Shown: positions 3,964-15,537 of the stretch, one piece after another
Layout: every line of letters starts with the position of its first letter
How positions within the stretch are numbered: the stretch's first letter is position 1
DNA from: Granulosicoccaceae bacterium
GTDB taxonomy: Bacteria > Pseudomonadota > Gammaproteobacteria > Granulosicoccales > Granulosicoccaceae
DNA: 37,977 bases
NCBI GenBank assembly: GCA_020629835.1
Contig: JAHDCO010000038.1
Coordinates: forward strand, 1 to 37,977
Direction of reading: 5' to 3'
Position numbers and translations under genes: made by a program
Notes under the pieces: model-generated
The model's input: the letters and a program-made list of their open reading frames with translations, nothing else
Told to the model about the DNA's origin: nothing
Database searches by the model: none

Positions 3964-4902
3964 TCATTGAGCCAGTGAAATCGTCAACGGTACTTCCACA
4001 CCGTCACGTAATACCACCACATCCAACTGCTCCGCCTTAACGACGTTACGCAGCGCTCGGATACCTTGTTTCTGAGAGTTTATTTGGATGTTGTTTACGC
4101 GAGTAATCACATCACCGGCAACAATGCCTTGGGCTTCAAGTATTTCTGGATTTTGTTTTGGGGTAATTCGGTAGCCCAGTAGCTTGCCGTTCTCTTGATA
4201 GGGCTCTGCGGCAACCACACGACCTAACATGGCCGGGTTGCGTGCTAGGTAATCGCGAATGGCGCCTGGGTTGGTGCTGGGTAATTCGATGGGTGCGTTG
4301 GGATCAACGCCTGCACCGCTGTTATTGCTGGCCGTTTGCTGCGGCTGTGAGCGTTGTATTTGACTGGCCGGTAGTGGCTTGATGTCTTCGGCCATGCTGA
4401 CTTTTTCAAACTTGCCGCGGTTTTTAATGATGACGTGGTCGCGGTGCACTTCTTCCAGTGTGGTTTCCCCGACGATACGTGAGCCAATTTGAAACGCTTC
4501 CTGGTCACCGTTGTCGACTGAAAGGATGGCCATGCTGCGCTCAATTGGGTTGTAGGCGAACACACCGGCTAATTTCAAATTCAATCGCGTTTGCGCGACG
4601 GGGCCACGCACCGGCTCTTCCTTTTTCTCTACCGGCGCTGAGAAGTCCCCGAACAAATGTCGGCGGGAGATAGCGCTAGCCAGCTGCCTGACATCCGGTG
4701 CGTCACTGGATGGTCTATTAATAGTGCTGGCGGTGGTTGTATTCACAGGCACCGGGGCAGGCATAAACGCGGGCACCGCCTTAACGGTTACCAATGCCAA
4801 AGCAACACCGATGGCCACGACCAACAGTGTATTGACCCAACGCGGTAATCGCTCGGGCGTGCCACCGCTGAGAGCGGCAGAAACGGAGGCGGCTGCATTC
4901 AC
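3964..4902 (-). CDS. gspC: Type II secretion inner-membrane clamp protein GspC
   Basis: A 312-residue bitopic inner-membrane protein that links the secretin to the inner-membrane platform. A short cytoplasmic N-terminus is followed by one transmembrane segment (about 21-46, TLLVVAIGVALALVTVKAV). Next come a Pro-rich periplasmic linker and the homology region (LNLKLAGVFAYN..), then a Gln/Asn-rich spacer. A C-terminal PDZ domain spans about 235-312 (GYRITPKQNPEILEAQGIVA..GDVITRVNNI). It is the first gene of the gsp operon. The 356 bases upstream hold no gene, so the operon promoter should lie there, though I could not identify convincing -35/-10 boxes. GspC rather than PilP is supported by the PDZ domain and by gspD directly downstream. 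Confidence 0.93.
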   Translation of the reverse strand: MNAAASVSAALSGGTPERLPRWVNTLLVVAIGVALALVTVKAVPAFMPAPVPVNTTTASTINRPSSDAPDVRQLASAISRRHLFGDFSAPVEKKEEPVRGPVAQTRLNLKLAGVFAYNPIERSMAILSVDNGDQEAFQIGSRIVGETTLEEVHRDHVIIKNRGKFEKVSMAEDIKPLPASQIQRSQPQQTASNNSGAGVDPNAPIELPSTNPGAIRDYLARNPAMLGRVVAAEPYQENGKLLGYRITPKQNPEILEAQGIVAGDVITRVNNIQINSQKQGIRALRNVVKAEQLDVVVLRDGVEVPLTISLAQ

Positions 4903-5025: not shown

Positions 5026-5215
5026 CACTTGCGCGATAAATTATGTAAAGACAGAAAATGGATTTATTCGGCTTCCATTCCCGTCACTGTGCAGGTGGAG
5101 TGTGGCAAGCCGCGAAGGTTCCCGCCAGTTTCGTGACGGAAAGATTTGCCTACGTAAATTGTGTCAATTTGTTGACTTAATATTGCAGGCTGGTCATGTC
5201 TTTATGAGGCGGGAA

Positions 5216-5252
5216 CGGTGAGCACCGCATTGTTTGTTTGCGGTGCTCACCG
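5216..5252 (-). terminator. Strong hairpin after the HU-like gene, probable terminator
   Basis: Perfect 14-bp inverted repeat CGGTGAGCACCGCA / TGCGGTGCTCACCG with a 9-base A/C loop (minus strand), starting 6 bases past the stop of the HU-like gene. The stem is long and GC-rich. The downstream strand on the minus side begins TTCCCGCC, so the U-tract is poor. It may terminate inefficiently or act as a 3' stabiliser. It separates the HU-like gene from the gsp operon. Confidence 0.7.
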
Positions 5253-5258
5253 CGCAGA

Positions 5259-5735
5259 TTAATTAACGACGTCTTTCAGTGCTTTTAATGCAACAACGCG
5301 AACTCGCTTAGAAGCTGGCTTCGCTTCACGGTACGCAGGTGGTGCATCTTTGTCGAACGGGTTGACGAAGTAACCGGCTTTTTTAGCAGGTACTTTCTTT
5401 ACAGAGATTTTGAACAAACCGGGCATACGGAACATGCCGTACTTGCGAGAGGTTAAGCAATCGCCAACGTAGTCAGTGAACGAATCCAAAACTGCACTCA
5501 CTTCTTTACGGCTTAGATCGGTTTCAGCCGCAATGTGGTTCAGCATTTCAGACTTGCTAGGGGCCTTACCACCAGCAGGACGAGCGGTGGCTTTCTTTTT
5601 AGCCGTCGCTTTTTTCTTAGTCGCGCGTTTTTTGGACGCCGCTTTCTTCGCTGCTACTTTCTTCGAAGCAGTTTTTTTAGCTGCTGCTTTCTTGGCCGTA
5701 GCTTTCTTCTTAGTGGCGCGTTTTTTTGCCGCCAT
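5259..5735 (-). CDS. HU-family DNA-binding protein with N-terminal histone-H1-like Lys/Ala tail
   Basis: A 158-residue nucleoid-associated protein. Residues 2 to about 55 are built almost only from K, A, T, S and R in repeats of the type KKATAKK / AAKKTASKK, the composition of histone H1 tails. From about 60 on there is an HU/IHF-like fold: PSKSEMLNHIAAET, then LSRKEVSAVLDSFTDYVG, a divergent FRMPGLFKISVKKVPAKKAG segment where HU has its beta strands, and NPFDKDAPPAYREAKPASK in place of the DNA-binding arm and RNP motif. The C-terminus VRVVALKALKDVVN matches the last HU helix. I place the start at the ATG at 5735, preceded by GAGGA; the frame is open 17 codons further upstream without a good ribosome site. 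Expected role: DNA compaction or bending. It stands alone between two hairpin regions, so it is probably monocistronic. Confidence 0.85.
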   Translation of the reverse strand: MAAKKRATKKKATAKKAAAKKTASKKVAAKKAASKKRATKKKATAKKKATARPAGGKAPSKSEMLNHIAAETDLSRKEVSAVLDSFTDYVGDCLTSRKYGMFRMPGLFKISVKKVPAKKAGYFVNPFDKDAPPAYREAKPASKRVRVVALKALKDVVN

Positions 5736-5858
5736 GTTGAGAATCCTCGTACTAAAAATTGGATGTGTGGGTTTTAGTATGTGCACTGCAAGCGCGAGCG
5801 GAAGTTACCACAGAACTTGCAACTCAAGGGATGTGTATAGAGCAAGCCCAGCGAAAAA

Positions 5859-5940
5859 CCCGTGTTTTTTCGGTTTTTTTTCTTATTTCACTAAAAAACA
5901 CGGGGGAAATGGCAAATTTTGAACAAAAACCCCGTGTTTT
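5859..5940 (-). terminator. Competing hairpins between yggT and the HU-like gene
   Basis: Three related elements lie here. On the plus strand CCCGTGTTTTTT (5859-5870) can pair with AAAAAACACGGG (5893-5904; 12 bp, 22-base loop). The same central arm, extended to AAAACACGGGG (5895-5905), can instead pair with CCCCGTGTTTT (5930-5940; 11 bp, 24-base loop). The two pairings are mutually exclusive. Read on the minus strand, each 3' arm ends in or is followed by a T run, as in an intrinsic terminator. The element begins about 20 bases after the yggT stop and precedes the HU-like start by about 125 bases. It is at least a terminator for the yggS-tal-proC-yggT unit. Confidence 0.6.
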
Positions 5941-5959
5941 CTAGTGTTTGAACAGGTGG

Positions 5960-6562
5960 CTAGGCACCTAATAAGGCAATTAACGATCCTACGATAAACA
6001 TGCGAAGGGCATACAAACCGATGATGGCTACCATGACGGATAAGTCAAACCCACCAATGGGTGGGATCAATCCGCGTAAGGGGCGCATGATGGGTGCCGT
6101 CACCGAATCCAACACGCCTTGAATCGGATTGCCATGAGAATTTGGAATCCAACTTAAGATGGCTTTGATGATTAACGAAAAGATAAAAACGTTGAACAGC
6201 AAATAAACCACATCGATGAATGTGAATGCCAACAGCTGCGCCCAATTCCATGAAGCAGGGTTTACCACGTAACCAAACCCGGAAACTCCGCCGAGTGGTA
6301 ACAATTTGAAAATTAAAAACTTCAACAATAAAACGCCATACACCATGACCAGGCTGGCGGTGTCATAGCGGCGAAAGCTCGGCACCACTCGGCGCAGCGG
6401 CACCAGGACGGGGTTGGATAGTTTCACGATCGCCTGAGCAAACTGATTGTGGTAATCCGCTCTTACCCACTGCAATACAAAGCGTAATGCAGGTACCGCG
6501 GCGTACAGGCTAAAAATGGTTCCAATGATGAAACCGATAGCGCCTAAGGCTGCATAACCCAT
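5960..6562 (-). CDS. yggT: YggT family membrane protein
   Basis: A 200-residue integral membrane protein with two YGGT repeats. The first has a membrane segment (FIIGTIFSLYAAVPALRFVL) followed by VKLSNPVLVPLRRVVPSF; the second has LLFNVFIFSLIIKAILSW followed by VTAPIMRPLRGLIPPIGG. The repeated 'P-(I/V)-x-x-P-(L/R)-R' loops are diagnostic of the family. The biochemical role is not established; links to osmotic stress and cell-envelope or division functions have been proposed for homologues. The gene starts on the base next to the end of proC, so it is translated as part of the proC operon. It is the last gene before the hairpins at 5859-5940. Confidence 0.93.
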   Translation of the reverse strand: MGYAALGAIGFIIGTIFSLYAAVPALRFVLQWVRADYHNQFAQAIVKLSNPVLVPLRRVVPSFRRYDTASLVMVYGVLLLKFLIFKLLPLGGVSGFGYVVNPASWNWAQLLAFTFIDVVYLLFNVFIFSLIIKAILSWIPNSHGNPIQGVLDSVTAPIMRPLRGLIPPIGGFDLSVMVAIIGLYALRMFIVGSLIALLGA

Positions 6563-13692: not shown

Positions 13693-14307
13693 ATGGCTCA
13701 ATTGTACTTTTACTATTCTGCGATGAACGCGGGTAAATCCACTACGTTATTGCAGTCTGCGCATAACTACCGAGAGCAGGGCATGGAAGTGCTGCTGTAC
13801 ACCGCTTCAATCGATAATCGTTTTGGCGCAGGCTTAATCAAATCTCGTATTGGGTTGGCAGAAGCGGCTGAAGTGTATGACGGGCAAACGGATTTTTTTG
13901 TCAGCGTTCGTGATCAGCTCGAGCAACGTTCAGAGACAGATAAACGTATTGCCTGCGTCTTGGTCGACGAAGCGCAATTCCTGACTCGCAATCAAGTTGA
14001 TGAATTGGCTGACGTGGTGGATGCCTTATCGTTGCCGGTACTTTGCTTTGGCTTACGCACGGACTTTCAAGGTGAGACGTTTCCTGGGTCGGCACGTTTG
14101 CTGGCGGTTGCCGATAAGCTCAATGAATTAAAAGCCGTTTGCGATTGTGGTCGTAAAGCCACCATGACGATTCGTCTGGACGAGTACGGTGATGCCATTG
14201 CCGCTGGAAGTCAGGTTGAAATTGGTGGCAACGAACGGTACGTCTCGAAATGCCGCCAGCATCATCGCGAGTTACTACGCGCAGCGATGGAGCGCGTGGG
14301 TGATTAA
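13693..14307 (+). CDS. tdk: Thymidine kinase
   Basis: A 204-residue type II thymidine kinase of the nucleoside salvage pathway (thymidine plus ATP to dTMP). P-loop SAMNAGKST (9-17), the VDEAQF motif (91-96) with the catalytic Glu93, the lasso region [16 protein letters not shown], and zinc ligands Cys150, Cys152, Cys187 and His190. It aligns closely with the Escherichia coli enzyme, beginning with the identical [17 protein letters not shown]. It starts 9 bases after the nucleotidyltransferase and may share its transcript. The stop codon lies in a 16-bp tandem repeat that also carries the stop of the convergent pyrC'. Confidence 0.96.
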
Positions 14308-14343
14308 GCGCCTGTGTGGTTAAGCGCTTGTGTGATTAAGCAC
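14296..14343. repeat. Three tandem 16-bp imperfect repeats at the tdk/pyrC' convergent ends
   Basis: Units: GTGGGTGATTAAGCGC (14296-14311), CTGTGTGGTTAAGCGC (14312-14327), TTGTGTGATTAAGCAC (14328-14343). Each contains TTAA, which reads TAA on both strands. The first unit supplies the tdk stop (14305-14307) and the second the pyrC' stop (14320-14322). The third unit encodes the NHTS near the C-terminus of PyrC'. This is most simply a small local duplication at a convergent junction; no terminator-like hairpin is seen. Confidence 0.8.
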
Positions 14344-15537
14344 CACGCCCATCAGGGGAGCATCTTCTCCGGTTAGCACTTTTACGTTGTTGATGCCAGT
14401 GAATGGGTTGTGGTGTGGGGCATCGCTTACAGTCACTGGGACATCGGGGTCAATGACGATGTAGCTGTTTACATCTTCAAAGTCGTACGTTAACCCTAAG
14501 ACCCTGGCGGGCGCCGTTGTCACTGTTGGGAGTAACGTTTCAAGCTCTGTACCCAGTAACTTGGGTAAGGCTAAGAACAACGGAAGGAATTGCGGGTAGC
14601 ACGCTAATCCGGGTGCCGTTGCCGGTAACGGTGCGAGTCGGGCATCGGAATCCAGTGGCGCATGGTCTGAGCAAATTGCATCGATGACGCCATCGGCTAC
14701 GCCTTGTCGTAATGCGTCGCGATCGGCCTGGCCTCTAAAAGGCACGGCACTATGAAAGCGCGCGTCGTAGCCGCTGATTTGCTCATCAGTAAAAAACAGA
14801 TGATGTATACCCACATCGCATGTGATGTTAAGCCCAGAGCGTTTAGTGTCTCGAATCATTTGAACCGAGCGTGCGCAGCTGATTCTGGAGATATGTATGC
14901 GGCAGCCACTGGCGTTGGCTAATTCAAGTAAGCGGGTAAGGCCTGCGGTTTCTGCAAGCGCGGGTATTGCCGGTAAGCCGTATTGAGACGCTATCGGGCC
15001 GTCATGAACGCAGCCGTTACCTGCCAAGGCTACGTCCAAAGCGGTAAGGCTTAGTGGAATGTTAAATGTCGCTGCGTATTCCATGGCTCGCAGCAACACC
15101 GCACTGTCATTGATCGGTTGATCGGCTTGCCCAAACGTGACGCATCCTGCGGCATGCAAGGTGGTAAGTTCGGTTAACTTAACGCCCGCAAGATCAGCGG
15201 TTAGTGCGCCCATCGGATGTAACTTACAAGCCGCCTGCGCTTTGGCAATGGATAGAATTTGCTCAACGGTGGCCGTACTGTCGATACAGGGTTGCGTATC
15301 CGGTGAGCACACCAGTCGTTTAAAGCCTGCTTGTTTGGCAAGTTCAGTTTCGTGTTGAATGTTGCCGCGGCGTTTTAATCCCGGCTCGCAAAGGCGAGTG
15401 TATAGGTCAATAAAACCTAAGGTAGCGAAGGTGTTGGCGCTGGGCTTTTGATCTGCTGTTATAGATAAACTGGCAGCGCTCTTGGGTACCGCTGTATCGA
15501 CCGGCAGAGTGTATTTGGATATTGAGTGCTCAGCCAC
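14320..15537 (-). CDS. pyrC': Inactive dihydroorotase homologue PyrC' (aspartate carbamoyltransferase partner)
   Basis: A 405-residue amidohydrolase-fold protein. Where active dihydroorotases have GFIDxHxHxREPG, this has [13 protein letters not shown] (41-53), so both metal-binding histidines of the HxH pair are replaced (Tyr46, Arg48). The expected HVST-type region reads HISRIS, while the late [11 protein letters not shown] keeps the Asp. This matches the non-catalytic PyrC' (PyrX) subunits that form a dodecameric complex with PyrB in Pseudomonas and relatives. The gene starts with GTG at 15537, overlapping pyrB by 8 bases. A true catalytic PyrC must be encoded elsewhere in the genome. It is the last gene of the minus-strand gshB-to-pyrC' group. 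Confidence 0.92.

Follow-up and report, generated by a model that had tools for sequence, protein, structure and literature searches.

Kamashev et al. (2017) distinguish, among HU proteins, a clade of alpha-, beta- and gamma-proteobacterial members, HU_ins, whose core is the most remote from other HU. In that paper (PMC5683647), beta strand 2 of HU_ins members is lengthened by 5 or 3 inserted residues and the core contains a PAKKA motif, most members have an N-terminal extension averaging 40 residues with about 10 Lys, and the members named come mainly from Rhizobiales, Burkholderiales and Xanthomonadales. Mycobacterial HupB and Streptomyces HupS are of a type that the same paper places in a different clade, HU_acti_C. 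HupB lacking its C-terminal Lys domain fails to associate stably with the nucleoid (PMC5676037), and acetylation has been reported for HupS, which has a C-terminal tail, and weakens its DNA binding (PMC11229371). The pA104R protein of African swine fever virus is lengthened, unlike bacterial HU/IHF, by the stretches P53-G55 and A90-K92; its proline enters the major groove, apparently without a bend in the DNA, and its best BLAST matches are bacterial HU proteins (as reviewed in PMC7712801). The open-licence literature that we searched yielded no experiment on the long-armed HU clade, only its sequence-based label.

The gene and its HU domain

We analysed a window of 37,977 nucleotides (contig JAHDCO010000038.1) from a Granulosicoccaceae bacterium, a family of Gammaproteobacteria. 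A minus-strand frame opens with ATG at 5735, closes with a stop codon ending at 5259 and encodes an HU-like protein of 158 amino acids with a calculated pI of 10.6; its ORF and translation agree with the coordinates and frame given in the initial annotation, and the gene is genuine. The ORF list also offers a longer frame from GTG at 5786 (175 aa), but we prefer the ATG because the MAAKK start is kept in all 20 same-genus homologues and because an AGGA, read from the sequence, lies 8 nt upstream. In codon comparisons with the three nearest relatives (L035, L036 and L037), synonymous to non-synonymous differences number 35:6, 44:11 and 41:14 in the HU domain and 18:11, 20:14 and 19:14 in the tail that precedes it. 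By these counts the coding sequence is under purifying selection, with the synonymous excess greater in the domain than in the tail. On the plus strand opposite the tail, the open frames 5476-5922 and 5535-5777 translate as Phe/Ala-rich, membrane-like sequences, because the complement of Lys and Ala codons reads that way; they are probably a spurious ORF trap for annotators.

Residues 58-158 (101 residues, net charge +8; 5262-5564, minus strand) form the HU domain. The HU fold proposed for them in the initial annotation was borne out: the Pfam family PF00216 (Bac_DNA_binding, HU/IHF) matches the protein at 36.1 bits (E 7.6e-9) and the domain alone at 40.1 bits against a cut-off of 22.4, as it does 12 of the 12 members of the profile alignment A1, and an AlphaFold2 model, built from 12 sequences and for the monomer only, has HU topology, with two helices (61-72 and 76-95), a sheet (strands 101-104, 108-115 and 142-149) bearing an arm (strands 121-123 and 134-136) and a last helix (151-157). 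From residue 61 onwards, ten-residue blocks have pLDDT values of 72-89; pTM is 0.45. Foldseek ranks pA104R first (E 8.1e-7), followed by HU and IHF chains, but VIA-align yields a tie, with 6n2l at Z 9.4 (1.8 A over 87), pA104R at Z 9.1 (4.4 A over 99) and canonical HU at Z 8.8, so that structure alone does not single out pA104R. Membership of the HU-HIG family (PF18291) was rejected, its score of 25.8 bits falling just under the cut-off of 26.2 with help from the tail (19.1 for the domain alone), as was an Hc2/H1-like identity (PF07382, 13.9 vs 40; NF038053, 16.2 vs 80; NF038052, 12.9 vs 135). The window genome holds three other PF00216 genes; to judge from their sequences, one encodes an HU and the other two encode IHF-like proteins.

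The lengthened arm

The domain had been described as lacking an obvious arm motif, so that DNA bending might be lost or replaced. The absence of the motif was wrong: an Asn125-Pro126 tip is present (codons at 5358-5363, minus strand) in an arm that is longer than in canonical HU. By sequence and profile alignments the lengthened region spans residues 113-141 (5313-5399, minus strand), with PAKKA at 116-120 and AKPA at 138-141. We reject arm loss because the tip proline occurs in all 84 distinct domain sequences, the window's included, a set that leans towards likeness, since its members had to reach 80 bits with an HMM of the same clade. The set comprises the best-scoring loci of each search and two plasmid records; of 91 loci with a hit, one scored less than 80 bits, and L087, which has a score of 89.4 bits and no ATG, was left out. 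The tips read NPF in 71 of the 84, NPQ in 5, DPF in 5, SPF in 2 and NPA in 1.

Measured against the genome's own HU (L001), the window arm has 3 more residues before the tip and 5 more after it: from the conserved G to the tip N there are 19 residues rather than 16, and from the tip P to the next conserved P 13 rather than 8. MAFFT and the HMM alignment place the pre-tip gap differently, so that the difference in length is firm and the site of insertion alignment-dependent. Across the distinct sequences the G-to-tip stretch is 19 residues in 79/84 and 20 in 3/84, being unscorable in 2/84; the post-tip stretch is 11 in 77/84, 12 in 3/84 and 13 in 4/84. The four with 13 are the window protein and the three relatives closest to it. 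In 3/84 the PGL pattern failed.

Among solved structures, the chain scoring best with a 12-member profile is pA104R, at E 1.9e-17 to 2.3e-17 compared with 3.6e-9 for the best canonical HU. Its arm (6lmh, 9js5) aligns to the profile without a gap, although there is one of 2 residues before strand 1, whereas the HU chains 8hd5 and 4qjn are three residues short both before and after the tip. Relative to HU, pA104R thus has both 3-residue insertions, where the window protein has +3 and +5. P53-G55 and A90-K92 are probably the clade's insertions. The two proteins also differ: pA104R is a 110-residue chain without the long tail, the identity between them is 27-29%, and its tip-to-AKP stretch is 2 residues shorter. 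A bacterial origin of pA104R is already implied by the BLAST matches reported in PMC7712801; what we add is that it shares its insertions with the clade. We did not find this stated in the literature searched, and the available portion of PMC5683647 makes no mention of the virus.

We think it rather likely that the window protein is an accessory nucleoid-associated protein whose lengthened arms and basic tail bind and condense DNA; it would most likely belong to HU_ins and act beside the genome's ordinary HU and two IHF-like proteins. From the fold we infer a dimer, which would hold DNA between two lengthened, Asn-Pro-tipped arms. In the manner reported for pA104R, these longer arms may hold the DNA without bending it strongly, leaving it coated and condensed more than kinked. 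Because pA104R, with its gapless arm alignment, is reported not to bend DNA, weak bending is plausible by analogy, on other grounds than the missing motif first proposed. A lack of bending is nonetheless the weakest step of the mechanism, and we advance it tentatively: the tip proline that is kept is the residue that intercalates in bending HU and would suit bending too, and the window's post-tip stretch is 2 residues longer than that of its pA104R-like relatives (13 vs 11).

In a possible, though rather unlikely, alternative the protein and the role of its tail are the same and the arms behave like those of ordinary HU, their tip prolines entering the minor groove and kinking the DNA while the insertions adjust reach only. 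The unbroken conservation of the tip proline (84/84) speaks for it, DNA-bending HU and IHF chains are as close in structure as pA104R, and Kamashev et al. modelled the inserts as changing the HU fold little (PMC5683647). Against it stand the two arm insertions held in common with pA104R, a protein reported to be non-bending. The review (PMC7712801) sets the arms of pA104R apart from those of bacterial HU/IHF; the same two insertions are common in a bacterial clade, and whether a long-armed HU bends DNA is therefore addressable in harmless bacteria.

The basic tail

Ahead of the domain lies a Lys/Ala tail, residues 1-57 (5565-5735, minus strand), made up of 22 K, 3 R, 19 A, 6 T and 2 S among others, with no D or E and a net charge of +25. 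Of the 75 frames in the window that run from stop to stop over 100 aa or more, it contains the most basic 50-residue stretch (net +24, the runner-up being +14), and with these frames as control its basicity exceeds chance for the window. AlphaFold2 gives pLDDT below 50 for residues 1-4 and 6-53, in keeping with the disordered basic N-terminal tail proposed earlier. The suggestion that an N-terminal position is unusual for such a tail was overstated, since tails in that position typify an HU clade already described (PMC5683647).

Slipped-strand variation in tail length, also suggested at first, fared differently within the window and across species. A search of the window tail for exact tandem duplications in the DNA (period 3-60 nt, at least 9 nt) gave none, its Lys and Ala codons are mixed (AAA 14, AAG 8; GCT 6, GCC 3, GCA 4, GCG 6) and TRF reports imperfect arrays only, with 80% and 66% matches. 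A slippage-prone repeat is accordingly rejected for the window copy, a rejection that does not extend to the clade. In one relative, L024, there is an exact 15-nt tandem, and the close pairs L023/L024 and L022/L026 each differ by a 5-residue gap, for which reason gain or loss of tail units between species appears likely.

Tail length ranges from 0 to 109 residues among the 84 distinct sequences, with tail starts chosen by rule (the starts of L006, L022, L023, L025, L027 and L035 being cut back to MAAKK if that motif occurred), and from 23 to 86 residues within the genus. The longest tail found, that of L064 in the same-family genome G168, has 109 residues with 42 Lys. A net charge of at least +5 is seen in 60/84. 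Because synonymous changes in the tail outnumber amino-acid changes while lengths vary, basic composition seems to be kept as length drifts. Tails reach at least 18 residues in 56/84 and fall short of 18 in 28/84, and by the latter count the tail is dispensable for the clade. Three genomes of one genus in another class (G236, G310 and G357) each encode two long-armed paralogues (L084-L086 and L089-L091) in which only 2-3 residues precede the domain, so that arm and tail are separable. Tails of 0 to 109 residues offer a natural series on what an H1-like tail adds to HU.

In the mechanism that we favour, an accessory protein that condenses DNA, the +25 disordered tail of each subunit would follow the backbone of the DNA held by the arms or of a DNA nearby, which would raise affinity and permit bridging and compaction, by analogy with the C-terminal Lys tail of HupB, which raises DNA binding. 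Low-complexity basic tails can bind any polyanion, and the tail might instead serve chiefly for RNA, polyphosphate or phase separation, with DNA not its target. We regard this as improbable given that the tail is joined to an HU domain whose DNA arm is conserved and that the tails of HupB and HupS are reported to act in DNA binding.

Genomic setting, distribution and known relatives

Pfam identifies the upstream neighbour as yggT (PF02325, YGGT; 5960-6562, minus strand) and the downstream neighbour as gspC (PF11356, T2SSC; 3964-4902, minus strand), at gaps of 224 nt and 356 nt, and in 20/20 same-genus copies the HU-like gene lies between the two. Starting 7 nt past its stop codon is a perfect 14-bp hairpin with a 9-nt loop (5216-5252, minus strand), terminator-like with a clear U run absent; the fold of 5205-5262 has -30.3 kcal/mol and a z of -7.1. 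Between yggT and the HU-like gene, overlapping inverted repeats (5859-5946, minus strand; fold of 5850-5950, -32.4 kcal/mol, z -4.7) probably mark the end of the yggT transcript. Flanked by hairpins on both sides, the gene looks monocistronic, which makes a special role in secretion unlikely despite the neighbours. That the protein is a dedicated regulator of the adjoining type II secretion genes is very improbable: gspC adjoins it in every same-genus copy, but hairpins and the two gaps separate the gene from both neighbours, and outside the genus relatives often have neither neighbour in the 1-5 kb covered on each side. A promoter scan gave a single promoter-like site, located in yggT, where shuffled sequences averaged 2.0. 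Terminator-like sites numbered six against a shuffle mean of 2.2, and the three of them that lie on the plus strand inside the tail are read as composition effects. Elsewhere in the window, a 16-bp direct repeat in 3.2 copies (14291-14341) straddles the end of the gene at 13693-14307 and the first part of the gap before the convergent gene at 14320-15537.

The domain is present in 20 of 23 same-genus genomes, and the three without it are 63-76% complete. In a draw of 185 genomes from the class, 103 match at E of 7.9e-18 or below, these being long-armed HU, often tailed; 42 match only at 1.8e-9 or above, which is the level where ordinary HU scores, and 40 have no match. A draw of 200 from the phylum gave 15 matches at E of 1e-15 or below, 4 of them from another class. 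A scan of named genomes returned 11 loci, namely three Granulosicoccaceae MAGs (87-94% identity), two other gammaproteobacterial MAGs (44-50%), five Myxococcales or Deltaproteobacteria MAGs (37-41%) and Trinickia (34%). The tailed HU-like protein is no oddity and fits a widespread HU subgroup that has been described before. Derivation from a phage or plasmid is scarcely credible: relatives, all below 60% identity, occur in 66 of 72,556 plasmid records (37 of them Cupriavidus), but the gene has a fixed chromosomal place in the genus, 50,697 phage records contained no match and none of 52 pattern matches in viral contigs was confirmed, so that a phage origin is rejected. Among the best 20 of the 66 plasmid relatives, 14 are annotated as 'HU family DNA-binding protein'.

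The window protein is a probable member of HU_ins, because it combines an insert (19 residues against 16 from the conserved G to the tip N, at an alignment-dependent site), a Lys-rich N-terminal extension (57 aa with 22 Lys) and PAKKA at residues 116-120, all in a proteobacterial host. It would thus belong to a kind already known, the arm being slightly longer in the small group around it. A conjecture that we consider unlikely, though worth stating, goes further: HU_ins may be a second bacterial HU-type packaging mode, in which long arms grip without kinking and an H1-like N-terminal tail, varying in length by units, tunes bridging, and pA104R may be a tail-less offshoot of the clade and no viral departure from HU.

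Dinoflagellate histone-like proteins, which may resemble the window protein in sequence, were considered as candidate kin. Kamashev et al. assign these proteins to a separate clade, HU_Rhodobacterales (PMC5683647). From HU_ins as described there, the window protein differs in its tail (57 residues with 22 Lys, against an average of 40 with about 10), in the 2 extra residues that its small group has after the arm tip, and in its Granulosicoccaceae-like host. It shares with HupB and HupS an HU domain and a long, Lys-rich, disordered tail, but theirs is C-terminal (PMC5676037, PMC11229371). With canonical HU, represented by the genome's own L001, it has in common the fold, the Asn-Pro tip and the ALKDxV end, whereas that protein has no tail and an arm shorter by 3 residues before the tip and 5 after it.
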